DNA from: Nevskiales bacterium
GTDB taxonomy: Bacteria; Pseudomonadota; Gammaproteobacteria; Nevskiales; Nevskiaceae
DNA: 64,000 nucleotides
Direction of reading: 5' to 3'
Assembly (NCBI GenBank): GCA_028698335.1
Contig: JAQVDP010000006.1
Span: 124,001-188,000 of the forward strand
Position numbers and translations under genes: made by a program. Shown in pieces: positions 15,425-31,326 of the stretch. Within the stretch, counting starts at the first letter, position 1. Each line of letters opens with the position of its first letter. The notes below the pieces were generated by a model. It had not been told where the DNA came from and made no database searches. It worked only from the letters and a program-made list of their open reading frames with translations.

Positions 15425-18400
15425 TCAGCGGAAGTCGCGCGACAGGCGGGGCAGGCCGGCCAGCCAGTGCGAGCGGTCGGCAAAGGCCTCGGCGAGAACG
15501 TGGGTGACGTCCTGTTCGCGTTGCAGCCTGCCCCGCACCAGCACGAAGCGGGCGCCGACGATGATGTCGCGCTGGCGCTCGATCAGCTTCGGCCAGATGA
15601 TCAGGTTGACGATGCCGGTGTCGTCTTCGAGGGTCATGAACATCGTGCCCCCGGCGGTGCCGGGGCGCTGGCGGAACATCACGATGCCGGCCACGCGCAC
15701 CCGCCGGCCGGCGTCGATCTGCTGCAGCTGCGCGTTGGGCACGATGTGATGGCGATCCAGGCGCGGCCGCAGCAGGGCCGCCGGATGCCGCCGCAATGAC
15801 AGACCGGTGCTGCGGTAGTCGGCCAGGATGTCCTCGCCTTCGACCGGCGCGGCCAGTGCCACGGGGTCGTCGGGCGGGGTCGCGCCGTGCAGCAGGCCGT
15901 CGAGCCGGGCGTGGCCACGGGTCTGCCAGCGGGCCTGGAAGCGGTGCCCGGCCAGGGCCCGCAGGGCATCGGCTGCCGCCAGCGCCTCGAGTTCGCGTGC
16001 GTTGAGCCGTGCCCGCAGCGCCAGATCCCCGACATCGGCGAATGCGCCGGTCCGGCGTGCATCGGCCAGTCGCCGCGCGGCGGCCTGATTGAAGCCGGAC
16101 ACCAGGCGCAGGCCGAGCCGGATCGCCGGTCGCCGCTGCGGATCCGGCACCAGGCTGCAGTCCCAGTCGCTGGCGGTGACGTCCACGGCCAGGACCTCGA
16201 CGCCGCGTCGGCGCGCTTCGGCGACCAGCATCGACGCCGGGTAGAACCCCATCGGCTGGCTGTTGATCAGCCCGCAGATGAACGCGGCCGGGTGGTGGCA
16301 CTTGAGCCAGGCCGAGGCGTAGGCGAGCAGGGCGAAACTGGCCGCGTGGCTTTCCGGAAAGCCGTAGCTGCCGAAGCCGAGGATCTGCCTGTAGATGCGT
16401 TCGGCGAACGCGGCATCGTAGCCGTTGGCGAGCATGCCGGCGGTGAGCTTGTCGCGGAATTTTTCCAGTCCGCCGGAGCGCTTCCATGCCGCCATCGAGC
16501 GGCGCACCTGATCCGCCTCGTCGGCCGAGAAGCCCGCCGCGACCATCGCGATGCGCATGACCTGCTCCTGGAAGATCGGAACGCCATAGGTGCGGCCGAG
16601 CACCTGCTGCAGGCGCGGCGGATAGTCCACCGGTTCGAGTCCGGCGCGGCGACGCAGGTACGGATGCACCATGTCGCCCTCGATCGGACCGGGCCGCACG
16701 ATCGCGACCTGTACGGTCAGGTCGTAGAGGTTCTGCGGCCGCAGGCGCGGCAGCATCGACATCTGCGCGCGCGACTCGATCTGGAACACGCCCAGCGTCT
16801 CGGCGCGGCAGATCATGGCGTAGGTTTCGGGGTCGTCGGTGGGGATCTGCTTGAGTCCCAGCACGGTTCCGTCGAAGGCACGCAGATGCTCGAAGGTCCG
16901 CCGCAACGCGCTGAGCATGCCCAGCGCGAGCACGTCGACTTTCAGCAGCCCCAGCGCTTCGAGGTCGTCCTTGTCCCACTGGATGATCGTGCGCTCCGGC
17001 ATGGCGGCGTTTTCCACCGGCACCAGCGCGGACAGCGGCGCGTCGGAGATCACGAAGCCGCCGACGTGCTGTGACAGATGCCGCGGGAACTCCAGCAGTT
17101 CGCGGGCCAGGTGCAGCCACAGCCGGACCGGACGCGCGTCGGGGTCGATGCCGATGTCGCGCAGGCGCTGCGGCAGGCCGTCCGGATCGTCCCACCACGC
17201 CAGCGAGCGGGTGACGTGGTCGATCAGATCGGGACCGATGTCGAGTGCGCGGCCGACGTCGCGCAGCGCCGAGCGGGGGCGATAGTGGATCACCGTTGCG
17301 GCGATCGCCGCGCGCTCGCGCCCGTACTTGCGATAGACGTACTGGATGACCTCCTCGCGGCGCTCGTGCTCGAAGTCGACGTCGATGTCCGGCGGCTCGT
17401 CGCGCTCGTTGGAAATGAAGCGCTCGAACAGCAGCTCGGTGAAGCCGGGGGAGACTTCGGTGATGCCGAGGGTGTAGCAGACCACCGAGTTGGCGGCGCT
17501 GCCGCGACCCTGGCACAGGATGCCTTGCGAGCGTGCGTAACGGACGATGTCGTAGACGGTCAGGAAGAATGCTTCGTAGCGCTTCTGCGCGATCAGGCCC
17601 AGTTCCTTCTCGATCAGCGTCCGCACCGCGGCCGGGCATCCGTCCGGCCAGCGCCAGGGGATGTGCTGCTCGACCAGTGTGCGCAGCCAGCTCTGCAGCG
17701 TGTGTCCGGGCGGGACGATCTCGCGCGGATAGTCGTATTTCAGCTCGCCGAGCCGGAACGCGCAGCGTTCGGCCACGACCAGGGTCTCGCGCAGCAACGC
17801 GGGTGGATACAGCGCCTGCAGGTCGGCGAGCGGGCGCAGATGGCGCTCGCCGTTGGCGAACAGGCGCTGGCCGCAGCGCTGCACCGGCAGGTGATGTCTC
17901 AGGGCGGTCAGCACGTCCTGCAGGGCGCGGCGCGCGCGGGTGTGCATGTGCACGTCGCCGCTGGCCACCAGCGGCACGCCGAAACGCCGCGACAGTGCCG
18001 CGAGCCGCTGCAGCTTCTGCGCGTCGTCGCCGTCGCGGTGCAGTTCGGCGGCGATCCACAGCCGCCCGCAATAGCGAGCGTGCAGCCATGCCAGCGTCTC
18101 GGCGTCCTCGTCGGCGTGGCCGGCGGTGGGCGGAATCCACAGCGCGCAGACATCGGGCAGCGGCCTGTCCAGATCGCTGCGCCGCAGCCGGTAGCGACCC
18201 TTGATCGCGGCACGCCGGGCGTGGGTGATCGCACCGCAGATCCCGGCGTACCCGTGCTGACTTTCGGCCAGCAGCACCAGTCTGGGGCCGTCGTCCAGAC
18301 TGAATTCGCTGCCGGCGATGACCGGCAGCCCGCTGCTCCGCCCGGCCTGCCAGGCGCGCACCGCGCCGGCCATCGAGCATTCGTCGGTCAGCGCCAGTGC

Positions 18401-18511
18401 GGCGTAGCCGAGCCCGGCCGCATGCTGCACCAACTCCTCCGGCAGCGAGGCGCCGCGCTGGAAGCTGAAGGCGGAGACGGCATGCAGTTCCGCATAGCCG
18501 GGGGCGTTCAT
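15425..18511 (-). CDS. dnaE2: Error-prone DNA polymerase III alpha subunit DnaE2 (ImuC)
   Basis: A 1028-residue C-family DNA polymerase used for mutagenic lesion bypass. An N-terminal PHP domain begins at HAVSAFSFQRGASLPEELV. The palm carries the acidic catalytic motif PPDIDVDFEHERREEVI, and the fingers and helix-hairpin-helix regions follow. The final region has an OB-fold (AGIVMFRQRPGTAGGTMFMT). It lacks the long C-terminal tau-binding extension of replicative DnaE and is shorter, as expected for DnaE2. It is the last gene of the lexA-imuA-imuB-dnaE2 cassette, 66 nt after imuB. LexA control is inferred from the boxes upstream of lexA. Confidence 0.96.
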   Translation of the reverse strand: MNAPGYAELHAVSAFSFQRGASLPEELVQHAAGLGYAALALTDECSMAGAVRAWQAGRSSGLPVIAGSEFSLDDGPRLVLLAESQHGYAGICGAITHARRAAIKGRYRLRRSDLDRPLPDVCALWIPPTAGHADEDAETLAWLHARYCGRLWIAAELHRDGDDAQKLQRLAALSRRFGVPLVASGDVHMHTRARRALQDVLTALRHHLPVQRCGQRLFANGERHLRPLADLQALYPPALLRETLVVAERCAFRLGELKYDYPREIVPPGHTLQSWLRTLVEQHIPWRWPDGCPAAVRTLIEKELGLIAQKRYEAFFLTVYDIVRYARSQGILCQGRGSAANSVVCYTLGITEVSPGFTELLFERFISNERDEPPDIDVDFEHERREEVIQYVYRKYGRERAAIAATVIHYRPRSALRDVGRALDIGPDLIDHVTRSLAWWDDPDGLPQRLRDIGIDPDARPVRLWLHLARELLEFPRHLSQHVGGFVISDAPLSALVPVENAAMPERTIIQWDKDDLEALGLLKVDVLALGMLSALRRTFEHLRAFDGTVLGLKQIPTDDPETYAMICRAETLGVFQIESRAQMSMLPRLRPQNLYDLTVQVAIVRPGPIEGDMVHPYLRRRAGLEPVDYPPRLQQVLGRTYGVPIFQEQVMRIAMVAAGFSADEADQVRRSMAAWKRSGGLEKFRDKLTAGMLANGYDAAFAERIYRQILGFGSYGFPESHAASFALLAYASAWLKCHHPAAFICGLINSQPMGFYPASMLVAEARRRGVEVLAVDVTASDWDCSLVPDPQRRPAIRLGLRLVSGFNQAAARRLADARRTGAFADVGDLALRARLNARELEALAAADALRALAGHRFQARWQTRGHARLDGLLHGATPPDDPVALAAPVEGEDILADYRSTGLSLRRHPAALLRPRLDRHHIVPNAQLQQIDAGRRVRVAGIVMFRQRPGTAGGTMFMTLEDDTGIVNLIIWPKLIERQRDIIVGARFVLVRGRLQREQDVTHVLAEAFADRSHWLAGLPRLSRDFR

Positions 18512-18577
18512 GCCGGCATGCCCCCGGATCGCGCGTGCGCGACGCCAGTGGCATCGGGCTTCACGCCGCGCGCGCGG

Positions 18578-20023
18578 TCATCCCCACCATCCATGCAGGT
18601 ACCAGCGTCGGTCGACATGGTTGCGGAAGACCCAGGCCTGCGCCTGCTGCCATTCGACCGTGTAGTAGTCGCGCCGGGCGTCGGCGCCGTCCCACCAGCC
18701 GCTCTCGATGCGTTCCGGTTCGCCGTCGACCGGCGGCGCGGCGGGCAGCGGGACCGGTTGGGGCAGCAGCCACAGCGGCCGGTCTGGGGGCGTGGCGGCG
18801 AGGGCCTGACGGTCATCGGCAGGCGCGGTGGCCGCAGCGGTGTCGTCGCCGGCGGGGCGGCGCGCCAGTGCGCGTTCCGGGCGATGGTCCTGGTGGACGG
18901 CCGGACTCCACAGCGCCGACTGGCCGAGGCGTGCCAGCAGGCGTTCGACCGTTTCGGTCCATTGCAGCTGATGATCGGAGCTGGCGTCGAACAGCGAGCC
19001 CTGTCCGACCGCCGCGGTGGCCAGATCCTCGGCCTTGAGCAGCAGGCCGCGGACCGGCGCGTGCAACGCCTCGCGGCCGAGGCGTTCGCGCAGCGCGGTG
19101 AAGATCCGGGTGCCGTCGCGATGCGCGCTGAGGAAGCGCAGCTTCAGCACCGTGCGCTGGCCGCGTGCGTGCGTGCAGTGCAGCTCGACGCCGCGGACGC
19201 CGACGTCGCGGCTGCGCAGCCAGGCCTGCAGCTCCAGGGTCATGCGCCGCAGCGGAAACATCAGGGCCTCGGCCGTATCGACTTCCGATGCCAGCTCGAA
19301 GCGGCGCCGGAACAGCGGCGGCGGCGTGATCGCGGGAGCCGGATCGGGGGCGCGCGCGCGGATGCGGTCCAGTTCGCGCAGCCGCTCCGGGCCGAAGCGG
19401 CGCGCCAGGGCATTGCGCGGCAGTTCGAACAGGTCGCCGATGCGGCGCAGGCCGACGCCGTGCAGGGCGTCGAGCTGCGCCTGCGGCCACGGCAGCAGCG
19501 CGCTCGGCAGGGGCGCCAGCGCCGCGTCGAGGGCCTCGCGCGTGCGCGGCCCCGGGTCGATGCCGTGCACGGCGAGCAGGGCCGCGCCGCCGCGCGACGG
19601 GGCGATCGCCAGCCGGTGATCCTGCTGCAGTTCGGCCAGATCGGCGGCGATCTGGCGGTACAGCGCGTCGAGGCCGCCGAACAGGCGCTCGCTGGCGCCG
19701 ATCTCGACCCACAACAGCGCCTGCGGCGGCCGGCCGGTGTCGTCGAAGTCGAGAATCTGGCTGACCACGGGGCTGCCGTAGCGGTAGATCCAGTGCGCCA
19801 GTCCCTTGAGCGCGGCGCGCTCGGCCGAGATGCGACGCGGGTGGGCGCGCAGTCCGGGGATGCGTGGCTGGGCATCGGACAGCGGCGTGCCGGCCGCGAT
19901 GCCGGGTCCGTCGGTGATCAGCCAGCGGCGGGGGCCGCGCTGCTCGGTGACGACGTCGAGGCGGTCGCGGAGACCCTGGGCCTCCGCGGGCAGCCGCGGG
20001 AAATACAGGCACAGCCAGAGCAT
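18578..20023 (-). CDS. imuB: Y-family polymerase-like mutagenesis protein ImuB
   Basis: A 481-residue ImuB, a Y-family polymerase relative that acts as the hub recruiting DnaE2 and the beta clamp rather than as a polymerase. It begins MLWLCLYFPRLPAEAQ, which is typical of the group. The central region keeps the polymerase fold (ALLWVEIGASERLFGG, then LHGVGLRRIGDLFELPR) but the usual acidic catalytic cluster is not evident. A clamp-binding-like motif QGSLFD lies at residues 341-346. The start at 20023 is ten bases after the imuA stop; a longer frame upstream would overlap imuA. It ends in the Trp-rich segment YYTVEWQQAQAWVFRNHVD seen in ImuB. Confidence 0.93.
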   Translation of the reverse strand: MLWLCLYFPRLPAEAQGLRDRLDVVTEQRGPRRWLITDGPGIAAGTPLSDAQPRIPGLRAHPRRISAERAALKGLAHWIYRYGSPVVSQILDFDDTGRPPQALLWVEIGASERLFGGLDALYRQIAADLAELQQDHRLAIAPSRGGAALLAVHGIDPGPRTREALDAALAPLPSALLPWPQAQLDALHGVGLRRIGDLFELPRNALARRFGPERLRELDRIRARAPDPAPAITPPPLFRRRFELASEVDTAEALMFPLRRMTLELQAWLRSRDVGVRGVELHCTHARGQRTVLKLRFLSAHRDGTRIFTALRERLGREALHAPVRGLLLKAEDLATAAVGQGSLFDASSDHQLQWTETVERLLARLGQSALWSPAVHQDHRPERALARRPAGDDTAAATAPADDRQALAATPPDRPLWLLPQPVPLPAAPPVDGEPERIESGWWDGADARRDYYTVEWQQAQAWVFRNHVDRRWYLHGWWG

Positions 20024-20033
20024 CGCGCTGCGC

Positions 20034-20672
20034 TCAGCCCGAACCGACGGCGTAGCGTCCGACGGGGCGGGCGCCGCGGCATTTGAGCACCTCGACGCGG
20101 GGCTGGCCCTGCGCACGCGTCACCTGCAGACGCAGCGCCGCGATGCTGTTCTGGTTGCGCGCACGGGCCGTGGCGCGCCGGAACAGGATGCAGATGCCGT
20201 CGCCGGATTCGGCGGCCAGCTGCAGGCGTCGCAGCGCGGTGGCGTCCGGGTCGCTCGACCACAGCAGCACGGTGCCGGCGCCGGCATGCAGCATCTGTTC
20301 GCAGGCCCACAGCGTGTCCGTTTCGCCGTGCGAGCCGGTGCCGGGCGGCGGTTCGAGGACCAGCAGCCGCGCCAGCGCGACGCCGGCGGCGGCGAACGCG
20401 GGGGCATACGGCAGGTGTTCGGGGCATGCCAGGATCACCGGTCTGCCGGCCCGGCTCGTCCGCGCCAGCAGGGGCAGCACCAGCGACAGTTCCCCGACGC
20501 CGGCGTGCGGGTACAGCACCTCGCTGAGCGCAGCCTGTGGCCAGCCGCCGCCGGGCAGCACGGCGTCGAGTGCGGCGTGTCCGGTCGTCTGCGCGCGGAC
20601 CGGCGCGACGCTGTCGCCGCGCCACAGCCGCGGATCGCGCAGCAGCTCGTGCAGGGGTGCCGCCGGGCTCAT
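20034..20672 (-). CDS. imuA: Translesion synthesis protein ImuA (RecA-like)
   Basis: A 212-residue SulA/RecA-like protein of the ImuA family. It begins by recognising a RecA-like core ([20 protein letters not shown]), which corresponds to the position of the nucleotide loop in RecA but is degenerate. The middle segment [21 protein letters not shown] and the C-terminal [21 protein letters not shown] match the family. The start overlaps the lexA stop (ATGA, 20669-20672), so translation is coupled. With ImuB and DnaE2 it forms the SOS mutasome of bacteria lacking UmuDC. Confidence 0.92.
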
Positions 20673-21307
20673 GCCAGGGCGAAGCCGCCGGTGCGCAGGA
20701 GTCCGACCGCGCGGCCCTCGATCGCCAGTTCCTGTTGACGCAGGTCGATCCGGATCGGCGCGAAATCCGGGTTGGCCGGCAACAGGCGCACGATCGAACC
20801 GCTGCGCTGGAAGCGCTTGACCGTGACCTCGTCGCCGATGCGGGCGACGACGATCTGGCCGTTTTCGGCGGTCTCGACGCGCTGCACCGCGAGCAGGTCG
20901 TCGGGGAGGATGCCGGCGTCGCGCATCGACCAGCCTTGGACCCGCAGCAGGAAGTCCGGTTGCGGATGGAACAGATGGCGGTCGATGCGATACCAGGACT
21001 CGATCTGCTCGACCGCGGTGATCGGTACGCCCGCGGCGACCCTGCCGACCAGCGGCAGCGCATCGTCGTCATTGGCCGCGGCCGGCGCCGGATCGTCGGC
21101 GACCACGCGGATGCCGCGCGACGTCCCCGGCATCAGTTCGATCGCGCCCTTGCGTGCCAGCGCACGCAGATGGTCCTCGGCCGCGGTCAGGGAGCGGAAG
21201 CCGAAGGCCTGGACGATTTCGGCGCGGGTCGGCGGCATGCCGTGCCCGGCGATGTGCTGCCTGATGAAGCCGAGGATCTCGGATTGCCTGCGGGTGAGAG
21301 GGTCCAT
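20669..21307 (-). CDS. lexA: LexA repressor leading the imuA-imuB-dnaE2 cassette
   Basis: A 212-residue LexA. It has the N-terminal winged helix ([20 protein letters not shown], then [15 protein letters not shown]) and the C-terminal S24 peptidase domain with nucleophile segment [15 protein letters not shown] and the lysine in [10 protein letters not shown]. The self-cleavage site is an Ala-Gly pair in [12 protein letters not shown]. The start ATG 21307 (MDPLTRRQ) fits the family; frames further upstream would run through the operator. The cassette position suggests the second-copy LexA seen in pseudomonads and xanthomonads, but I cannot tell whether another lexA exists in the genome. It is probably autoregulated through the two boxes just upstream. 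Confidence 0.94.
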
Positions 21308-21323
21308 TGCGGCGACTGAAGTA

Positions 21324-21341
21324 ACTGTACGTAAATACAGT
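21324..21341 (-). promoter_or_regulatory. LexA box 1 upstream of lexA
   Basis: The sequence CTGT-N8-ACAG at 21325-21340 (within ACTGTACGTAAATACAGT) is an exact match to the enterobacterial-type SOS box, palindromic at both ends. It lies 17 bases upstream of the lexA ATG, so it would cover the promoter or transcript start of lexA-imuA-imuB-dnaE2. Confidence 0.9.
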
Positions 21342-21357
21342 GATCCGGATTTCAATC

Positions 21358-21619: not shown

Positions 21620-22633
21620 ATGAGGGTTGAGACATTGAGTAAGAAGCGGAAGCCGCATTTCGCGGCGAAGAAGTCCCTGCGCAAGCTGCGCGGTGCGATG
21701 CTGACGGCGGGCCTGGTTGCGGCTGCGCCGCTGATGGCGTCCGGTGCGGGCCTGACCAAGGTGACGGCACGCCCGGCGGCTTCCGGTCATGTGCAGCATG
21801 TCGCCCTGCGCTCGGCCGAGGATATGTCGATGCAGGCGGCGCTGGACCGGTCGGTCCGGTCGCTGGGGCTGGGGCGTGCCGCCCGTGACGGGCGTCTGGC
21901 CGTGGCGCTGGTCGATATCACCGATCCCGAGCGCCCGCGCATGGCGCAGATCAACGGCGACCAGATGTTCTACGCCGCGAGCCTGCCCAAGATCGCGATT
22001 CTGCTCGGCGCCTTCCAGAAGGCGGCCGACAACGGCGAGGAGCTGGACGCTGCCACGATTGCCGAGCTGGAGCAGATGATCCGCCGCTCGTCGAACTCGG
22101 CCGCGACCGACATGCTGCACCGGGTCGGCGGTACGGATTACCTGGCCAAGGTGCTGCAGTCGCCGCGCTACCGTCTCTACGACCCGGCCCTGAACGGCGG
22201 GCTGTGGGTCGGCAAGCCCTACAGCGCCAGCGGCGCGACCCGCCGCGATCCGTTGCACAACATCTCGCACGGCGCCACCGCATTCCAGGTTGCGCGCTTC
22301 TACTATCTGCTCGAGACCGGGCGTCTGGTGTCGCCGGAAGCCAGTCGCAAGATGAAGGAAATCATGGGTTCGCCCGCGATCCATCACAAGTTCGTCGCCG
22401 GGCTGGAAAAGACCCACCCGGATTCGCAGATCTTCCGCAAGTCCGGTTCCTGGCGCATCTATCACGCCGACAGCGCCATCGTCGAGCGCGACGGGCGTCG
22501 TTACATCGCGGTCGGTCTGGCGCAGGACCCCAGCGGTGGAACCTGGATGAGCGAACTGATCGTGGCGATGGACAACATCGTGTTCGACCACACGACCCGC
22601 GTCGCGGCGAACAAACCGTCGCAACAGCTCTAG
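21620..22633 (+). CDS. Exported class A beta-lactamase-like (SxxK) serine hydrolase
   Basis: A 337-residue member of the beta-lactamase/penicillin-binding superfamily, class A type. The catalytic motifs are SLPK (Ser121, Lys124), SSN (157-159) and KSGSW near residue 275, in the position of KTG. A basic N-terminus followed by the hydrophobic stretch AMLTAGLVAAAPLMASGAG acts as a signal or anchor. ATG 21620 is listed; TTG 21635 has a better placed GAGGG ribosome site and could be the true start, giving a twin-Lys N-terminus. The enzyme may cut peptidoglycan peptides or beta-lactams; I see no proof that it is a resistance enzyme. It converges on an operon containing another protein with the same three motifs. 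Confidence 0.8.
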   Translation: MRVETLSKKRKPHFAAKKSLRKLRGAMLTAGLVAAAPLMASGAGLTKVTARPAASGHVQHVALRSAEDMSMQAALDRSVRSLGLGRAARDGRLAVALVDITDPERPRMAQINGDQMFYAASLPKIAILLGAFQKAADNGEELDAATIAELEQMIRRSSNSAATDMLHRVGGTDYLAKVLQSPRYRLYDPALNGGLWVGKPYSASGATRRDPLHNISHGATAFQVARFYYLLETGRLVSPEASRKMKEIMGSPAIHHKFVAGLEKTHPDSQIFRKSGSWRIYHADSAIVERDGRRYIAVGLAQDPSGGTWMSELIVAMDNIVFDHTTRVAANKPSQQL

Positions 22634-22672: not shown

Positions 22673-22705
22673 GCCGATCCCGCCGCTTCATGCGGCGGGA
22701 TCGGC
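22673..22705. other. 14-bp perfect hairpin containing the stop codon of the leftward gene
   Basis: GCCGATCCCGCCGC (22673-22686) pairs perfectly with 22692-22705 around a five-base loop (TTCAT). The TGA of the leftward membrane protein gene (22688-22690) lies in the loop. There is no T-run on either side, so this is not a standard intrinsic terminator. It may protect the 3' end or pause both converging transcripts. Confidence 0.6.
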
Positions 22706-24007
22706 ATTGGTGTCGGCGATGGCGCTGAGACGGCGGTAGTCGCTGCGGATCGACCAGATCGCATACAGCCAGCCGGCGCATAGCAGCACCACCACCCAGC
22801 TCAGGCCGGCATCGCTGACCGGCCATGGCAGCCACTGCGTCAGCAGCAGGATGGCGACGTTGCCGATGATCTTGAAGCTGCGGTAGCCGACCATGTCGAT
22901 CCAGCCCTTGGCGCGGAAGATCGTCGCCGGATCGGCCGGGATGTACAGCAGTTCGCGCGAGGCGCGGTTGATCGAATACGACAGCGCGCGGTCGCCGATC
23001 TTCATCGCGCCGGCGACCCACAGCCGGTCGCGGACGGTGAACAGCAGCGCCGCCATCCCCAGTACCAGCGGTTGCACCATCAGCCCGGCAATCGCGCCGA
23101 ATCGCCGGTGGATGAACGGCGTGACCAGCAGATTGACGCCGAGCGCCACCGCATTGAGCAGGCTCAGGAACGAGGACAGGAACGCGGTGCGCGCGTCGGC
23201 TTCGCTGTAGCTGCGTTCGACCAGATGCAGGAACTGGTACTCGACGATCGGTTCGCAGACCTGGGACAGCAGCAGGATCACCGCGATCAGCATCAGGTAG
23301 CGATTGCCGCGCAGCAGCCGCCAGCCCCGGGCGTCGGGCGGAGCCGGTTGCGGGGTTGCTGCTGGCGGCGCCGGCGCTGTCGCCGCCAGCGGAAGGTCCC
23401 GGTCGTACAGGCCGTAGCGCGACAGAGTGTTGATCAGCAGCATCATCAGCACCATCAGTCCGGCCGACACCAGCAACAGGTCCGCCGTCTGCAGCGGCGT
23501 CAGATGGATCAGGGCGCTGGCCAGCGATCCGCCGGCGAGCCCGCCGAGCAGGCCGCCGCTGGCGATCAGACCGTACCAGCGCTTGCCGTCGGCGCTGCGA
23601 AAGACGCTGTCGGTCAGGCTCCAGAACTGCTCGACCAGCACCACGCTGAAGATATCGACCAGCAGGTAGAAGCCGATCACCGTGACGACACCGGGCTGCA
23701 TCAGCAGGATGCGGAAGCCGATCAGCAGCAATGCGATCGCGCCGCAGGTGCCGAGCACCAGCCGCAGACGGCTGTAGCGTTCGACCATGCGCTGGTAGAA
23801 CGGCATCAGCAGGATCAGCAACAAGGCGCTGCCGGTCCACAGGTACGGCAGTTGCGCCGCGCCGGCATATTCGAGGAACAGCGACCGGCTTGCCGGCTTG
23901 ACCTGGTAGTAGGCCAGGATGATCAGGAAGAAATTGAAGAACAGCAGGGCCGAGCGCAGGCCCGGGTGCCGGCGCAGTCCGTGTTCGGGGTGTGCCGCGT
24001 CACTCAT
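22688..24007 (-). CDS. Nucleotide-exchanger-like (Npt/Tlc-type) membrane transporter
   Basis: A 439-residue inner-membrane protein with about 12 hydrophobic segments, split by a Pro/Ala-rich cytoplasmic linker (ATAPAPPAATPQPAPPDA, about residues 210-228). The late segment SRELLYIPADPATIFRAKGW followed by IDMVGYRSFKIIGN matches the conserved region of bacterial Npt1/Npt2-type proteins (ATP/ADP-translocase-like, within the MFS fold), which commonly read ARExLFT...YKAKxFIDxxVYRxGD. The substrate is therefore guessed to be a nucleotide; other MFS cargo is possible. The start overlaps the upstream hydrolase stop by eight bases. It is the last gene of the three-gene operon begun by the exported dikinase-like protein. 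Confidence 0.7.
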   Translation of the reverse strand: MSDAAHPEHGLRRHPGLRSALLFFNFFLIILAYYQVKPASRSLFLEYAGAAQLPYLWTGSALLLILLMPFYQRMVERYSRLRLVLGTCGAIALLLIGFRILLMQPGVVTVIGFYLLVDIFSVVLVEQFWSLTDSVFRSADGKRWYGLIASGGLLGGLAGGSLASALIHLTPLQTADLLLVSAGLMVLMMLLINTLSRYGLYDRDLPLAATAPAPPAATPQPAPPDARGWRLLRGNRYLMLIAVILLLSQVCEPIVEYQFLHLVERSYSEADARTAFLSSFLSLLNAVALGVNLLVTPFIHRRFGAIAGLMVQPLVLGMAALLFTVRDRLWVAGAMKIGDRALSYSINRASRELLYIPADPATIFRAKGWIDMVGYRSFKIIGNVAILLLTQWLPWPVSDAGLSWVVVLLCAGWLYAIWSIRSDYRRLSAIADTNADPAA

Positions 24008-25337
24008 CGTCGTTGCCGCTGCCGTCGACCGGAACCGGGGCGTAGGTCGGTTCGGGGGTTGGTGTCGCCGCCGGTTGCCGGTGGATCCTTTCGATCAGCC
24101 GGTGGATGCGCATGGCCAGCGTCTGGTGGGCGACCGCGGAATTGACGTAGAGCACGTTGGACATCACTGCCACCAGATAGTGATAGCGCGGCGCGCCGGC
24201 CGGCGATTCGATGATCGCGACCGAGGCCAGGCGGTTGGTCTTGTCGCCGTGGTACTTCTTGCAGGATCCCGGACCGTTGAGACACTGGAAGAACGAGCCA
24301 GACTTGAAATACACCGCCGCGTCGTTGAGCGCCGGATGCGAAGCGTAGCGGATGCGCCGCTGGGTCATGTACAGCAGGCGCTTGATCTCGGTGCTGCTGA
24401 AGGCATCGACGAGGGTGCCGGCTTCGAGCCTGAACAGGTATTGGACCAGCTGTTCCGGCGTGCCATAGCTCGACGTGGTGCTGACGCGCTTGTTGCCGGA
24501 ACGGGTGAAGAAGCTGCCCTGGCGGAAGCGCTCCGGGTCGAGGCCGTTGCGGGCGACCGCGTCGTTCATCGCCGTCAGCATGATCTCGCCCAGCGCGCGG
24601 TTCGAGGTGTCGGCGAAGAATGCGGCTTCCTGATCCGCGGTGGGCGGATAGGCGCGGCCGAAGTGGCTCAGCGCGATCAGTTCCTTCTGCACCATCGCCG
24701 CGGCGGAGTTGGAACTGGCCGACATCATCCAGTCGAGGAATTCCCAGAGCGTGGCGCGGTCGCCGATGCGGATCGAGCGGCTGGAGAACGCCTTGGTCTC
24801 TGGGTTCCAGAACGGCACGTGATGGTGGTCGTGCTGGCTGAAGATGTCGGCGGTGATCCAGGTGTCATGGAGCACGCGCAGGCGCGCGTCGAGGTCGTCC
24901 GGGTAGAGGTCGGCGAGCTGCTGGAAGACCGCCAGCGCCACCAGGATCTTGCCGACGCTGCCGACGTTGGCGCGCAGGTCGGCGTTGTGGGTGCCGTACA
25001 GCGGATGTTGCGGATCGCTCAGATCGAGCACCGCGATGCCGTAGTTGCGGCGGGCGTCGGCATCGAGCAGCGCGCGCAGCTGGCGGCTGAAGTCCGCGTC
25101 CGGCGGCGGCAGGGTGGCCCCGTCGGACACATGCCAGCGCGGATAGACCTCTCCGGTCGGCAGGTACTGTCCCGGATGCCGCCGCGGTCCCCGGACCTCC
25201 CCCTGCATGATGCGCAGGTCGCGGTCGAGACGACGGATGCCGGTGCGGTCGTAGCCGTCGACCGGGTAGGCGGATGCCGGCGCCGCGCTGCCGGCCAGGG
25301 CGAGCGCGACGATGGCGGCGACGACGGGGCGCATCAT
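24000..25337 (-). CDS. Exported SxxK serine hydrolase (beta-lactamase-like), second copy
   Basis: A 445-residue secreted protein with a signal peptide (residues 1-23, ending PASA). It shows the class A beta-lactamase/PBP motifs SVGK (Ser127, Lys130), SSN in MSASSNSAAAM, and KSGSFF in the position of KTG. Compared with classical beta-lactamases it has an N-terminal extension and an insert between the motifs. A short Cys-rich patch (CLNGPGSCKKY) may form a disulfide. The start ATG 25337 overlaps the stop of the upstream gene (ATGA), and its own end overlaps the transporter gene, so all three are translationally coupled. The likely target is peptidoglycan or a related peptide; the true substrate is unknown. 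Confidence 0.8.
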   Translation of the reverse strand: MMRPVVAAIVALALAGSAAPASAYPVDGYDRTGIRRLDRDLRIMQGEVRGPRRHPGQYLPTGEVYPRWHVSDGATLPPPDADFSRQLRALLDADARRNYGIAVLDLSDPQHPLYGTHNADLRANVGSVGKILVALAVFQQLADLYPDDLDARLRVLHDTWITADIFSQHDHHHVPFWNPETKAFSSRSIRIGDRATLWEFLDWMMSASSNSAAAMVQKELIALSHFGRAYPPTADQEAAFFADTSNRALGEIMLTAMNDAVARNGLDPERFRQGSFFTRSGNKRVSTTSSYGTPEQLVQYLFRLEAGTLVDAFSSTEIKRLLYMTQRRIRYASHPALNDAAVYFKSGSFFQCLNGPGSCKKYHGDKTNRLASVAIIESPAGAPRYHYLVAVMSNVLYVNSAVAHQTLAMRIHRLIERIHRQPAATPTPEPTYAPVPVDGSGNDDE

Positions 25338-28315
25338 CGGGACGTGTCCATCGGCGGCAGCATCATGCTGGCGGTGCGTCCCATCGACTCGCGCAGACCG
25401 GTATCCATCGCCGCAAGATACTCGCTGCGGGCGGCGATGCGGTTCTGCAGGAACGGGCGGATCTGGAACAGCATCAGCTTGCCGTCGACGAAGCCGAACT
25501 CGACGTCGGCCGGCGCCGGATTGCCGTCGGCGTCGAGCAGTTGCGGATAGCGCTCCGGCAGCGCGTGCGCCAGCAGCAGCAGCTGGTTGATCTCGGCCGA
25601 ACTCAGCAGATAGTCCGGCGCGCTCGCGCGTTCGGTCGCGACGCCGCCGTCCTCCGGCAGGACGCGCCGGGTGCGGGCACTGGTCGACGACAGCAGGCGG
25701 ACCGCGCCGCTGGTCATCGACACGCGCAGGGTCTCGGCCGCCTGACCCTCGACGCCGCCGCCGACGCCGGGGCTGGTGACGATGGTGATCACGTCGCGCG
25801 CGCCGCTGTCGATGTCGGCGGTGACCATCACGCCCGATTTCTCGCTGGGGACGCTGCGGTGCAGCAGGACCGAGGCGTACACGTGTTCCGGATGGTCCAT
25901 CAGGCTCTGGCGCCAGCCGAAGGCGCGCTCGCTGAACGGCGAGGCCCAGACCTGCTTGATCGCGTCGAGCACGTGTTCGAAGCCGACGACGTTGGGCACC
26001 GTCTTGTTGAGCCCGGCGCCGGTGAATCCCGGCAGATCCTCGATGTTGGTGTCGCTGCGCACGAACACACCATAGCTGCCGTCCTTGCCGAACGTCTGCT
26101 CCATGGACGCCCGCAGTTCCTGGACGAAACCGGGATCGAGGTCGGTCTGCACGATCCAGTCGCGGACCTGGGCCAGGAAGCGCGGCAGCCGTTTCGCGTA
26201 CTCGTCGGGCGCGCGGGTCCTGAGCACGGCGAACTCGGCATAGCGCGCCTTCATCCACTCGAACATCGAAGGCTGTCCGGGCGCCACCGGCCGGTCGAGC
26301 AGGCGGCGGTAGACCCCGAACGGGATCGCCAGACCCGGCGACACCATGCCCGAGAACGCGTGCGACAGCTCGCCGACGCCGGCGGCCTTGGGTCCGACGA
26401 TGCGTCCGGCGTACGCGGCACGCAGCGCGCGTGTCGAGATCAGGGCGGTGTAGTCCAGGTCGAGCTTGTCGGGGTCGACGACGATCGATGCCTGCGGGTT
26501 TTCATTCGGCAGTCCGATCACCCGGCGCCACTGCGGGCCGTCCTCGGCGATCTCGACCACGCCGCCGGGACTCGCGGCAATCGCGATCGTCTCGCCGCGA
26601 TGGCGTGCGAGTTCCGGCATCAGGCTGTGCGCGACGACGACGTTGGGAATCCCGAGGTTGCGTGCGAGCAACTGCACATGCGACAGCGAGTTGCCCTCGT
26701 CGGCGGTGAGGATGCCGGCCACCGGCGGCAGGTCCGCCAGGGTTTCGGGAACCAGCAGGATCGATTGGGCGCTGTCGGCCGTCGGATCGCGCAGATCGTC
26801 CGGCGTGCGCAGCACGCCGCGGGCGATGCCCGGGTTCAGCCGTCGCAGCGCCTCGCCCACCGGCTCGCCGAACAGCGTGTGCGGCGTGTTGCCGAGCCTG
26901 TCGGCGTCGCGCGACAGCTGCTCGAGCACGCTCGAATAGAACAGCATCACGCTGCCGCGCAGACGGTCGGGGATGAACATGTCGGCGAGCGGCTCGATCG
27001 GCCGGAAGGTGTCGATCGCATTGCCGAAGAAGTATTCGAGGCGGCGCGAGGCCCATCCGGGGACACGCTGCAGCACCTGCAGCTGGTCGCGGTAGGTTTC
27101 GAGGTCGACCTCGATCGCCGTCAGCGACTGCAGCGCCAGCGAGACCTCGCCGAGTTCGCGATAGCTCAGCAGGCCCATGCCGTAGAGGGCGCGGGCGGCC
27201 GTTCCGAGCCATTCGAGCAGATGCGCGCGGCTGGTGGCCGCGGTCTGTTCGAGCAGCGTCCGGCTGTCGCCGAAGACGTTGCCCTCCGCGTGCAGGCTCA
27301 GGTCCAGCGCGTCGAGGCGCACGCTCGGCGGCCCCAGTTCCAGGATGTGATTGCGGATCTCGACCAGCACCTCGGCGCCGAGGGTGAACTGACTGGCGGT
27401 GTCGCCGTACTGCTCCAGGTGGCTGGCCAGCTCGCGCAGCTTCTGGCTCATGCCGGGCGACTGCGATTGCACCGCCAGCGCCCGCAGCGCGGTCGGCAGT
27501 GATTTGCGCTGGTAGCTGGCGTCGATCGCCTCGACGAGCCGGGCGTACTCGGTCTGCAGTCCGGCCTTGGCGCGCCCGCCGGCGGCATATTCGCGGACGC
27601 GCTGGGCGTCGGCGGGTTCCGGCGCCAGATGGATCTTCGAGCGCAGCGCCTCGAAGCCGGGATCCTGTTCGGCGATCGTCGTCGCCAGCCCGCGCATCTG
27701 GGTCAGGAGGGTGCTGTCCGCCCCATGCGGCAGCAGGCGCGCGGTCTCGCGCAGCATCAGATGCTGCGTGCGCCACTGCGGGTGGCCCAGCATGTAGCGC
27801 AGGATCGCGTTGGCGCTGTCGCGTTCGTTGTATTCCTGGAAGGCGCCGCGGTAGAAGCGGGCCTTGCGCAGGATCCAGCCGTTGTCGAAGGCGACCAGGA
27901 ATTTTTCGAGCAGCAGTTCGCTGAGCCGGTCCGGGGGGGCGTCCGGGCCGGCCGCGTCGGTCGGTTTCAGGTCAGCCAGTACGTTGGCGACGGGGTAACC
28001 GGCCGCGCGCAGCAGGCGTGTCTGCTCCGACCATTCGCCGTGCTGGACGCCGCCGCCGTGGGGCTCGCAGCCGAACGGCGTCGGATCGAGGACCTGACCG
28101 TCCGCGCAGAACCAGCGCAGGCGCGAGAACGGCCCGCGCGGCAAGTCCTTCATCTGTTCGATCCAGGCCCGGGCCGTTTGCGGCGATGGCGGCGCCAGCG
28201 TCTCCGGCTGCGGGTCGCCCGTCGCGCCCGGCGCCTGCGCGCGGGCCGCCCCGCTCGGGGACAGTGCGGCCGCTGCGGCCAGGACGGCCGCGCTGAGAAT
28301 CAAACGTACAGTCAC
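25334..28315 (-). CDS. Exported PEP-synthase/glucan-dikinase-like protein
   Basis: A 993-residue protein. A signal peptide (residues 1-26, LILSAAVLAAAAAL core, ending AARA) is followed by about 500 mostly helical residues without a recognised domain. Next comes a phosphohistidine swivel domain (TADEGNSLSHVQLLARNLGI, His546) and then a C-terminal ATP-grasp domain of the PEP synthase/PPDK type. The ATP-grasp part shows RSDTNIEDLPGFTGAG from Arg753, SGVMVTADIDSG, and a closing LMLFQIRPF that matches the QxRP motif. The order (swivel, then ATP-grasp, no TIM barrel) is that of plant glucan water dikinases, not of PEP synthase. The start GTG 28315 gives the signal peptide; no clear ribosome site is seen. 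Phosphotransfer from ATP to a periplasmic polymer is my inference. Confidence 0.75.
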   Translation of the reverse strand: MTVRLILSAAVLAAAAALSPSGAARAQAPGATGDPQPETLAPPSPQTARAWIEQMKDLPRGPFSRLRWFCADGQVLDPTPFGCEPHGGGVQHGEWSEQTRLLRAAGYPVANVLADLKPTDAAGPDAPPDRLSELLLEKFLVAFDNGWILRKARFYRGAFQEYNERDSANAILRYMLGHPQWRTQHLMLRETARLLPHGADSTLLTQMRGLATTIAEQDPGFEALRSKIHLAPEPADAQRVREYAAGGRAKAGLQTEYARLVEAIDASYQRKSLPTALRALAVQSQSPGMSQKLRELASHLEQYGDTASQFTLGAEVLVEIRNHILELGPPSVRLDALDLSLHAEGNVFGDSRTLLEQTAATSRAHLLEWLGTAARALYGMGLLSYRELGEVSLALQSLTAIEVDLETYRDQLQVLQRVPGWASRRLEYFFGNAIDTFRPIEPLADMFIPDRLRGSVMLFYSSVLEQLSRDADRLGNTPHTLFGEPVGEALRRLNPGIARGVLRTPDDLRDPTADSAQSILLVPETLADLPPVAGILTADEGNSLSHVQLLARNLGIPNVVVAHSLMPELARHRGETIAIAASPGGVVEIAEDGPQWRRVIGLPNENPQASIVVDPDKLDLDYTALISTRALRAAYAGRIVGPKAAGVGELSHAFSGMVSPGLAIPFGVYRRLLDRPVAPGQPSMFEWMKARYAEFAVLRTRAPDEYAKRLPRFLAQVRDWIVQTDLDPGFVQELRASMEQTFGKDGSYGVFVRSDTNIEDLPGFTGAGLNKTVPNVVGFEHVLDAIKQVWASPFSERAFGWRQSLMDHPEHVYASVLLHRSVPSEKSGVMVTADIDSGARDVITIVTSPGVGGGVEGQAAETLRVSMTSGAVRLLSSTSARTRRVLPEDGGVATERASAPDYLLSSAEINQLLLLAHALPERYPQLLDADGNPAPADVEFGFVDGKLMLFQIRPFLQNRIAARSEYLAAMDTGLRESMGRTASMMLPPMDTSR

Positions 28316-29258: not shown

Positions 29259-29302
29259 GCGCCGCCGTTGGCGCGGTGCCGACCCAACCGACGGAGTGGA
29301 TG

Positions 29303-30295
29303 ATGCATACGAATGAATCTTCTGAGACCCGGACGATGCGCGCCGCCGCGGTGCAGCTCGAGGCCGAGGTCGGCGATGTCGCCACCAACCTCGAACGGAT
29401 CGAGCGGCTGGTGGACGAGGCCGCGGCCGGAGGCGCGCGTCTGATCGCGGTGCCGGAGTTCTGCACCTCGCGCCTGCCGTTCGATGCGCGGGCGCATCAG
29501 GCGGTGCTGCCGCCGGACAACGTGGCGCTGGATCTGTTCCAGCGCCTGGCGGCGCGGCACCACTGCTGGCTCGGCGGGTCGATGCTGGTCGCCGAGGGCG
29601 GCGAGATCTACAACCGCTACCATTTCGTCGGCCCTGGCGGACAGGTCTTTTGTCACGACAAGGACCTGCCGACGATGTGGGAGAACGCGTTCTATCGCGG
29701 TGGCCACGACGATGGCGTCTTCGACACCGAGCTGGGCGGGGTCGGTGCGGCGGTCTGCTGGGAGCTGATCCGGACGCAGACCGTGCGGCGCATGCTCGGT
29801 CGCGTCGATGTCGCGATCACCGGCACCCACTGGTGGACCCTGCCGAGCAACTGGGGCGCGGCGGTCGGCCGCGGCCTCGCCGCGCTGGCGCAGTACAACC
29901 GGTACATGGCCGAGAACGCGCCCAGCGAGTTCGCGCGCCGTCTCGGTGCGCCGGTGCTGCAGGCCTCGCATTGCGGGCGCTTCCGGACCGGATTCATGTT
30001 GGTCCCGGGCATGCCGCTGAGCGCGCCGTACGACACCGAGTTCGTCGGCTGCACCCAGATCGTCGATGCGCAGGGGCATGTGCTCGCTCAGCGCCAGGCG
30101 CAGGAAGGTCCGGGCGTGGTCAGCGCCGACATCGGGATCGGGCGGCGGGCGCCACTGCAGGCGCTGGAGTCGCGGTTCTGGATTCCCGAGCTGCCGCTGT
30201 TCCTGCACGCGTACTGGCACCAGCAGAATGCCTGCGGCAAGGCCTACTACCGGCGTCATGGCCGCGCCGCCGGCCTCGCCGCGGTGGGCGCCTAG
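29303..30295 (+). CDS. Nitrilase-superfamily carbon-nitrogen hydrolase
   Basis: A 330-residue cytoplasmic amidase/nitrilase-family enzyme with the full catalytic triad: Glu52 (VPEFC), Lys120 (HDKDLPTMWEN) and Cys152 (GAAVCWELIR). It would hydrolyse a C-N bond in an amide, nitrile or carbamoyl compound. Two ATGs lie in a row (29300 and 29303); GGAG at 29293-29296 is better spaced for 29303. The GTHWWTLPSNWG segment is not diagnostic of a subfamily I know. It lies 44 nt after the SMUG1 gene and 131 nt before the AEC transporter gene. The substrate is unknown. Confidence 0.85.
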   Translation: MHTNESSETRTMRAAAVQLEAEVGDVATNLERIERLVDEAAAGGARLIAVPEFCTSRLPFDARAHQAVLPPDNVALDLFQRLAARHHCWLGGSMLVAEGGEIYNRYHFVGPGGQVFCHDKDLPTMWENAFYRGGHDDGVFDTELGGVGAAVCWELIRTQTVRRMLGRVDVAITGTHWWTLPSNWGAAVGRGLAALAQYNRYMAENAPSEFARRLGAPVLQASHCGRFRTGFMLVPGMPLSAPYDTEFVGCTQIVDAQGHVLAQRQAQEGPGVVSADIGIGRRAPLQALESRFWIPELPLFLHAYWHQQNACGKAYYRRHGRAAGLAAVGA

Positions 30296-30426
30296 GCGCG
30301 CGGCGGGATCGCTACGACCATCGGCGGATGGCGTCCGCCGGTGCGTCGGCGTTCAATGTGGGGCTTGTCCATCGGCGGCCGAGCCTTTCTAATGGCGCCC
30401 GTTTTCGCATCCCCCGTGTATCTGTC

Positions 30427-31326
30427 GTGACGCCTCTGATCCTGTTGATGGTCTGCCTTGCGCTCGGCGTGCTGGTCGCGCGTTACGCGCACCCGCCGCT
30501 GGGACTGGCGCAGGGCCTGAACTGGTGGGTCATCAACATCGCCCTGCCGGCGCTGGTGCTGGAGCTGATCCCGCGCCTGCACTTCGAGTGGCAGTTCTGG
30601 TTCCTCGTGATCTCGCAGTACGGGGTGATGATCGGCGCGGCGGCCCTGTTCCACCCGTTGGGCCGGCGCCTGGGATGGAGCCGCGGCCGCATCGGTGCGG
30701 TGATCCTGGTCTGCGGGCTCGGCAACACTTCGTTCATGGGTTATCCGCTGTTAGAGGCCCTGCGCGGACGCGAGGGGCTCGCGGTCGGTGTGATCGCCGA
30801 CCAGCTCGGATGCTTCATCGCGCTGGCGGTCGGCGGCGTGATCGTCTCGGCGATCTATTCGGGTGCGCAGCCGCATCCGCGCGACGTTGCCAGGCGGGTG
30901 CTGCTGTTCCCGGCGTTCCTGGCGCTGGTGACGGGGATCGTCGTCGGCCAGCTCGGCGGCTGGCCGGACCAGGCTGACGCGATCCTCAAGCGCATCGGCG
31001 AGACGCTGACGCCGTTGGCGCTGTTCTCGGTGGGGTTGCGGTTCAAGCTGCACTTCGGTGACGGGCAGCTGCTGCCGGTTGCGCTGGGACTGTCGTGGAA
31101 GCTACTGCTGGCGCCGCTGCTGACGCTGATGCTCGGCTGGGCCACCGGCGTCGGCGGGCTGACGTTGACGATCGGCGTGATGCAGACGGCAATGGCGCCG
31201 ATGATCTCGGCTGCGATCCTGGCCGACCAGCACAATCTCGAGCCGCCGCTGGCCAACACCATTCTCGGTGCCGGCATCCTGCTGTCGCTGGTGACCGTGC
31301 CGCTGTGGAATATCGCGCTCGGCTAG
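30427..31326 (+). CDS. AEC (auxin efflux carrier) family transporter
   Basis: A 299-residue integral membrane protein of the AEC/bile-acid-transporter-related superfamily, the usual length for the family. Ten hydrophobic segments are visible, with the conserved features NIALPALVLELI in the second helix, GLGNTSFMGYPLLEALRG in the first repeat and MQTAMAPMISAAILADQHN in the second repeat. Bacterial members export malonate, malate or other small acids; the cargo here is unknown. GTG 30427 is the start that leaves the first helix intact. The 131 nt before it contain no gene I can see. Confidence 0.88.
   Translation: MTPLILLMVCLALGVLVARYAHPPLGLAQGLNWWVINIALPALVLELIPRLHFEWQFWFLVISQYGVMIGAAALFHPLGRRLGWSRGRIGAVILVCGLGNTSFMGYPLLEALRGREGLAVGVIADQLGCFIALAVGGVIVSAIYSGAQPHPRDVARRVLLFPAFLALVTGIVVGQLGGWPDQADAILKRIGETLTPLALFSVGLRFKLHFGDGQLLPVALGLSWKLLLAPLLTLMLGWATGVGGLTLTIGVMQTAMAPMISAAILADQHNLEPPLANTILGAGILLSLVTVPLWNIALG

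Follow-up and report, generated by a model that had tools for sequence, protein, structure and literature searches.

A conserved gene set joins a predicted exported dikinase-like protein, two SxxK hydrolases and an NTT-family carrier in a Nevskiales bacterium and its relatives

The genes considered here lie next to each other in a 64,000-nt stretch of DNA from a Nevskiales bacterium (assembly GCA_028698335.1, contig JAQVDP010000006.1, positions 124,001 to 188,000 of the forward strand; the whole stretch is referred to as the window), and they encode a dikinase-like protein (DK), two SxxK serine hydrolases (H1 and H2) and a carrier-like membrane protein of the NTT/TLC family (T). DK, H1, H2 and T are a conserved linked set, found together far beyond chance and kept by many free-living bacteria, the same combination being met in many Gammaproteobacteria and in some other groups. 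The composition of the set suggests an export of ATP across the inner membrane, which would power reactions on the far side.

The association was followed by profile searches in 369 genomes drawn from the class, own genome included. DK was found in 34 of them, with 9 of the 85 genomes of the order and 7 of the 58 of the family, and in 1 of 148 genomes of the phylum of a Desulfobacterium-titled relative, the one being that relative itself. H1 was present in 37 genomes, namely all 34 with DK and three more, H2 in 35 (33 DK genomes and two others) and T, at more than 300 bits, in 28 (27 DK genomes and one other); G093 was counted as lacking T despite a 129-residue fragment at 177 bits. Uncorrected for kinship, Fisher tests give p values of 1.5e-43 to 5e-47 for the association of DK, H1 and H2, and of 2e-33 for that of T with DK. 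The first-pass annotation of the window had proposed a search for co-occurrence of the DK, H1 and T families, and the outcome agrees with its expectation, DK, H1 and H2 being almost inseparable and T nearly so. In the three H1 genomes without a DK call, a contig begins inside the end of DK (G346) or inside H1 (G121), or relics only are present (G287). In the last of these, fragments of H1 and H2 abut at L169 7201-7599 beside an intact gene for a divergent NTT-type carrier (T2), and DK was not found in the genome; with DK gone and H1 and H2 reduced to fragments, the core therefore seems to have been lost as a unit while T2 stayed. In G149 and G280, T and H2 adjoin each other, though far from DK and H1.

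Considering the carriers more broadly, any NTT homologue at E ≤ 1e-10 was found in 32 of the 34 DK genomes versus 53 of the 335 others, and PF03219 was matched in 4 of 21 relatives, which are the four with DK, and in none of 14 control genomes; a more sensitive T-family alignment profile also found divergent carriers in two of the other relatives, G072 and G079, missed by PF03219. Among loci in which no T ortholog lies close to DK, 27 were chosen for a genome search: 25 of the genomes hold an NTT homologue, in four cases a T ortholog elsewhere, and the remaining two, L094 and L134, carry T2 in the locus (129 and 110 bits). Since the genome search missed these two, some divergent carriers have been overlooked, and the NTT-negative counts may be too high, with or without DK. 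Among the 80 matches kept of at least 576, DK-relative records are titled Hydrocarboniphaga, Parahaliea, Halothiobacillus, Guyparkeria and Mariprofundus, and bins labelled Desulfobacterales, Betaproteobacteria and Myxococcales also appear; a protein-only scan of genome contigs gave no relative, whereas the alignment scan did.

At the level of gene neighbourhoods, 116 loci were merged to 106 non-redundant ones at 95% identity, 77 of them with at least 4.5 kb downstream of DK; L152, for which no single open reading frame (ORF) of DK was found, and loci with no DK ORF long enough to pass the length rule did not enter this count. Within the fetched stretch of the 77 loci, H1 is present in 73, H2 in 67 and an NTT-type carrier in 60; T occurs in 41, a T2-type carrier only in 19, and DK, H1, H2 and T together in 39. 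The 4-nt overlap of DK and H1 recurs in 48 of the 91 non-redundant loci with a same-strand H1 (starts taken from the longest ORFs), and H2, reversed, lies between H1 and T in 27 loci, the gene order of the window being found in 8. The fetched stretch of L081, from Hydrocarboniphaga effusa AP103, has DK, H1 and T, with no H2 seen in it. With shadow ORFs set aside, no fifth ORF family is present in more than 10 of the 106 non-redundant loci; a gene judged by eye to be pyruvate kinase-like occurs in 9 of them (for example, L064 3591-5045). The alignments of the four proteins (A1 to A4) include the window protein and leave out L057 and L074 (A1), L057, L059, L076, L078 and L079 (A2; near-duplicates, a stop, fragments), L057, L066 and L078 (A3), and L053, L055, L057 and L078 (A4). 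Over 19 loci, protein distances are correlated among the four members of the set (r 0.74-0.87), a level reached in none of 1000 permutations.

By its ATP-grasp residues and a swivelling His of the PF00391 type, DK is a member of the PEPS/PPDK/GWD/RPH dikinase superfamily. PF00391 is matched at 26.5 bits (cut-off 23.1), and by 36 of 36 DK sequences at E ≤ 0.01, and PF01326 at 109 bits (cut-off 27), the phospho-His domain preceding the ATP-grasp domain and both following about 430 residues of mainly helical sequence. Eight solved chains are related to DK by sequence (E 2.2e-33 to 8.5e-14), among them entries for phosphoenolpyruvate (PEP) synthase, HpeI and the rifampin phosphotransferase (RPH) RPH-Lm; the best folds for the AlphaFold2 (AF2) model, with a mean predicted local distance difference test score (pLDDT) of 87.7, are RPH-Lm, HpeI and a PEP synthase, and its ATP-grasp part matches 5hv3/5hv6. 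Lys643, Arg753, Thr772, Glu939, Gln951, Arg953 and His546 are invariant in the 36 sequences, window included. In the alignment to RPH-Lm, Arg753, Thr772, Glu939 and His546 correspond to Arg117, Thr136, Glu297 and His825, His546 being aligned also with the catalytic His of PEP synthases, and Lys643 is placed at the Lys22 position of PPDK and RPH indirectly, through a lysine of the PEP synthase 2ols. Lys22, Arg117 and Thr136 are described as important in RPH-Lm, and His825 as the phosphate carrier (PMC4844700). With its catalytic residues kept throughout and aligned with those of RPH-Lm, DK would appear to be catalytically competent, as an enzyme of the type ATP -> AMP + Pi + phospho-His.

GWD and PWD of plants share with DK a large N-terminal part and, as we take it, a phospho-His domain placed before a C-terminal ATP-grasp domain; unlike DK, they are plastidic and specific for starch, whereas DK has a signal sequence, scores 11.5 bits against GWD1_pHisD (cut-off 27) and gave no match to a carbohydrate-binding family in the Pfam scan. 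An essential His is reported for GWD and PWD (PMC12892837). Two other identities considered for DK were rejected, since both the order and the content of its domains differ from those of PEP synthase and RPH. PEP synthase and pyruvate phosphate dikinase (PPDK) have homologous ATP-grasp and His domains (8a8e, E 2.2e-33), arranged in the order ATP-grasp, His, PEP; in DK the two shared domains stand in reverse order, none of the 36 members has a Pfam match to the PEP/pyruvate-binding domain, and the scores are far under the NCBIfam cut-offs. RPH-Lm and HpeHI combine, like DK, an ATP-grasp domain and a swivelling phospho-His with matching catalytic residues. Nevertheless, DK reaches 73.9 bits against NF041857, with a cut-off of 999, and its His precedes the ATP-grasp domain, while that of RPH is C-terminal, after the rifampin (RIF)-binding substrate domain (PMC4844700), and the parts of HpeHI are described as split over two proteins (PMC12167813). 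The N-terminal region of DK (residues 45-475) matches no Pfam family, either in the window protein or in the 36 members, and the 50 PDB rows listed by Foldseek are dikinase or ATP-grasp proteins, or folds whose names show no connection with it. A paralogue that has diverged to 31% identity with the window DK is encoded at L080 (G256 contig 179) 5931-8945, on a contig that also holds an H2-like gene; G256 carries a standard DK besides.

H1 and H2 both match PF13354 (27.3 and 59.2 bits, cut-off 22), and their motifs are kept in all members aligned: S127xxK130, S208xN210 and K345SG347 in 32 of 32 H1 sequences, and S121xxK124, S157xN159 and K274SG276 in 26 of 26 H2 sequences. The top Foldseek ranks of the H1 model (pLDDT 91.8) are LRA-5 and the PBP-A of Thermosynechococcus, at 12-17% identity, and the H2 profile weakly matches the TLL2115/PBP-A chains 2j7v (E 3.6e-4) and 2j9o (E 7.2e-4). 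Both hydrolases thus share with PBP-A and LRA-5 the class A beta-lactamase fold (H2 by this weak profile match) and the SxxK, SxN and KSG motifs; H1 differs in an N-terminal extension and a Cys pair. Both score far under the cut-off of the class A beta-lactamase model NF033103 (200 bits), with 12.1 bits for H1 and 19.9 bits for H2. The mutants listed for the solved structures, V166E in LRA-5 and L158E in PBP-A, suggest that the natural forms are devoid of the deacylating Glu. A DD-peptidase-like or transpeptidase-like role of H1 and H2 on the cell wall would be plausible.

DK, H1 and H2 are predicted to be exported. Sec-like signal sequences were judged by eye and by a simple hydropathy rule, which is passed by 33 of 36 DK, 31 of 32 H1 and 23 of 26 H2 sequences; the failing DK and H1 sequences are only 0.01-0.16 units short, and of the three failing H2 sequences two are about 0.25 short and one has its start set too late by the rule. 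The N-terminal region of DK holds Cys70 (36 of 36) and Cys83 (35 of 36), and H1 keeps Cys352 and Cys359 in 32 of 32; judged from the sequences, both pairs would suit disulphides.

T belongs to the NTT family at the profile level. It reaches 55.4 bits against PF03219 TLC (cut-off 21), 29.2 bits against MFS_1, under the cut-off of 33.4, and 47.1 bits against TIGR00769, under the cut-off of 387; PF03219 is matched by 24 of 24 T sequences at E ≤ 0.001, and MFS_1 also by 15 of them. When the T profile is compared with PDB sequences at E ≤ 1, 9j3n (E 5.8e-23) and 9j3j (E 1.6e-15) are the only matches, and these Chlamydia and Arabidopsis ATP/ADP carriers are the sole solved structures matched. The earlier suggestion that the third gene resembles carriers of the ATP/ADP-translocase type is therefore upheld, and the profile comparison proposed for T matched no non-nucleotide MFS carrier among the PDB sequences at that threshold. 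T shares with Chlamydia Npt1 and Arabidopsis AtNTT1 the PF03219 membership, and Asp118, Glu256 and Lys379 of T align with Glu245, Glu385 and Lys527 of AtNTT1 (numbering = structure chain number + 84), which are among the key charges whose roles are treated in PMC3306366 and PMC10654386. Across 49 T sequences, the Glu245 site is Asp in 48 of the 48 with a letter, the Glu385 site is Glu in 43 and Asp in 6, and the Lys527 site is Lys in 48. These sequences, as well as the 31 of T2, include near-duplicate loci, and some T2 sequences come from loci that also hold T. T differs from Npt1 and AtNTT1 in its TIGR00769 score, in a residue discussed below, in its 4.3-Mb genome and in its operon with a predicted exported ATP-using enzyme.

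Of the 31 T2 carriers, 28 have Asp where AtNTT1 has Lys527, 25 have Gly or Ser in place of Glu245, and 27 keep an acid in place of Glu385. They are diverse, with 22-27% identity to the first row of their alignment except for one at 82%, and they match the NTT structures too, so that the notion that only T is NTT-like was rejected. Among seven T2 proteins scanned, one is above the HEAT_2 cut-off and two are near it. L064, L067 and L077 have a second, long NTT-like gene in tandem downstream of T, the one in L067 with a HEAT-like match below cut-off. NTT-HEAT fusions are known, and the substrates within the NTT family extend to others, NAD being an example, while one member was found to move no nucleotide when tested (PMC5381601).

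In proposing how the four genes might work, we infer what T transports and in which direction, which acceptor DK uses and that H1 and H2 act on the wall. The set would form one conserved system of ATP-driven phosphotransfer outside the cytoplasmic membrane, in which exported DK would split ATP to AMP and Pi at its ATP-grasp domain, through phospho-His546, and hand the phosphate on to an acceptor that its helical N-terminal region would bind. Such an acceptor would probably be a component of the cell envelope, most likely a glycan or muropeptide, also processed by H1 and H2 as two PBP-A-like SxxK acyl-transfer enzymes, and T would bring ATP into the periplasm and take up spent nucleotide in return. 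In the eukaryotic secretory pathway, lumenal kinases similarly depend on nucleotide antiporters. Taken as a whole, this account of envelope phosphotransfer fuelled by exported ATP, with T supplying the nucleotide, falls a little short of an even chance; the sharper statement for free-living Gram-negatives, in which a dedicated NTT-type carrier exports ATP for a dikinase that works in the periplasm and has the wall, or some other glycan of the envelope, as its phosphorylation target, accompanied by two PBP-A-like acyl-transfer enzymes, is put forward tentatively, its chances being rather under even.

Several observations weigh against this account, which rests on sequence and models, and in which the acceptor of DK is not named by the sequence. 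Lys155 of AtNTT1, which is tied to ADP binding there (PMC3306366), is without a counterpart in T, the stretch concerned aligning weakly (1.2 bits). The carrier is of the divergent T2 type alone in the 19 loci mentioned above, and T2 carriers mostly do without two of the key NTT charges; since the T2 profile matches the NTT structures better than the T profile does (9j3n, E 1.4e-27), profile similarity alone does not single out T. In 17 of the 77 loci no NTT-type gene was seen within the fetched stretch. Two genomes with DK, H1 and H2, G295 and G315, gave no NTT homologue at E ≤ 1e-10; close to their DK genes there are weak matches only, by tblastn in L061 (122 residues, E 3.8e-5) and at 45 bits in L062. 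The correlated distances can be explained by common descent alone, SxxK folds also serve beta-lactamases and esterases, and Glu297, the counterpart of the conserved Glu939, is reported as dispensable in RPH-Lm (PMC4844700). The operon reading of the first-pass annotation is partly supported: it stands as regards the linkage of its three genes and the NTT-like nature of the carrier, and is weakened by the missing Lys155 counterpart and by the loci with T2 alone.

The same observations on the carrier favour a variant that retains the envelope module but gives T another task: T would take back a product, be it AMP, another nucleotide or a phosphorylated fragment of the envelope, and ATP would enter the periplasm by a different route. 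The lack of a Lys155 equivalent, the other substrates known within the NTT family and the replacement of T by T2 carriers with other residues are in agreement with it; nevertheless, at three of the four key NTT charges 48 or 49 of the 49 T sequences have the same residue or a conservative substitute, and no other recurrent gene able to supply ATP was found in the neighbourhoods, which leaves this variant rather unlikely. RPH and HpeHI are cytosolic small-molecule kinases, and DK might be a detoxifying or scavenging kinase of the same kind, acting in the periplasm together with beta-lactamase-like H1 and H2 in a cluster that modifies antibiotics or xenobiotics. The closest folds to the ATP-grasp part of DK include RPH-Lm and HpeI, H1 has the class A beta-lactamase/PBP-A fold and H2 belongs to the same Pfam family. 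This possibility is nevertheless improbable: the domain order of DK is unlike that of RPH, both hydrolases score far under the class A beta-lactamase cut-off, the top folds of H1 are proteins that probably have no deacylating Glu in their natural forms, no plasmid copies were found at E ≤ 1e-30 among 72,556 records, and the retention of both hydrolases in 33 of the 34 DK genomes fits an envelope role better than a variable resistance.

Use of environmental nucleotides, in which T would import what other cells release, whether ATP or other nucleotides, and DK would draw on this same outside pool, would be in line with the import of nucleotides by characterised parasite NTTs (PMC5381601) and with the titles of several relative records, which denote sediment or biofilm samples (among the 80 matches kept of at least 576). 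No further gene family occurs in more than 10 of the 106 loci, the minor families being unannotated, which argues against a nuclease or nucleotidase as a regular partner, and this explanation appears distinctly improbable. A chance neighbourhood, or neutral hitch-hiking of unrelated genes, could be argued from the loci in which members lie several kb apart (for example, L054, L058, L061, L074, L132 and L155), but it is extremely improbable given the co-occurrence counts in the 369 genomes, the neighbourhood counts, the correlated distances and the apparent loss of the core as a unit in G287. Anti-phage defence is not supported, as none of the four window proteins matched a PADLOC model at E ≤ 0.01.

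ATP is generally taken to be absent from the periplasm. No bacterial system is known to us in which an NTT-type carrier, an exported dikinase and paired PBP-A-like enzymes come together. In agreement with the earlier remark that no described system of this composition was known, none was found in the open-licence library searched, at the level of titles and abstract beginnings. Each family is known; the combination appears to be new, with a putative function. NTT carriers are reported to be widespread in free-living bacteria, nearly all of the characterised ones coming from parasites, symbionts and plastids (PMC5381601). Their association with a predicted exported ATP-using enzyme offers a concrete, testable reason for some NTTs of free-living bacteria, and the set indicates that the Gram-negative envelope may undergo a modification not yet described. 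If the account of envelope phosphotransfer with T as ATP supplier is true, it would provide both an ATP-fuelled pathway of envelope modification and a role for these carriers.

In the window, DK, H1 and T are three consecutive genes of the minus strand, and H2, on the plus strand, converges with them, 54 bp separating the ends of H2 and T (Table 1). The overlaps of 4 and 8 bases among the three genes, noted in the first-pass annotation, were re-derived and are correct, and the second hydrolase with the same motifs that it had seen converging on the operon is H2, which belongs to the same system by the co-occurrence counts. The start of DK is uncertain, as the GTG at 28315 has no clear ribosome site and further in-frame starts lie upstream.

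Table 1. Positions in the window of the four genes and of the features discussed
Feature	Position	Strand	Remarks
DK	25334..28315	-	993 aa, dikinase-like, predicted exported; GTG start codon, its position not certain
Presumed Sec signal sequence of DK, about aa 1-27	28235..28315	-	hydrophobic N-terminal segment
DK N-terminal region, aa 45-475	26891..28183	-	AF2 model, mostly helical; presumed acceptor-binding part
DK phospho-His (PEP-utilizers) domain, aa 522-578	26582..26752	-	PF00391; His546 at 26678-26680
DK ATP-grasp domain, aa 639-957	25445..26401	-	PF01326; Lys643, Arg753, Thr772, Glu939, Gln951, Arg953
DK/H1 overlap, 4 nt (DK stop, H1 start)	25334..25337	-	
H1	24000..25337	-	445 aa, SxxK serine hydrolase, class A beta-lactamase/PBP-A fold, predicted exported; PF13354
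H1/T overlap, 8 nt (H1 stop, T start)	24000..24007	-	
T	22688..24007	-	439 aa, NTT/TLC-family carrier-like membrane protein; PF03219
H2	21620..22633	+	second SxxK hydrolase, predicted exported; PF13354

Adjoining H2, on the minus strand at 15428-21355, LexA (PF01726/PF00717), two ORFs which we take to be imuA-like and imuB-like, and a DnaE2-type polymerase (PF07733) stand in a row, whose gene order suggests an SOS mutasome cassette; the imuB-like ORF had no Pfam match at E ≤ 1e-4. On the other side, a gene of the uracil-DNA glycosylase superfamily (PF03167; 28542-29255, plus strand) is divergent from DK and is followed downstream by a CN_hydrolase gene (29276-30292) and a Mem_trans carrier (30310-31323).

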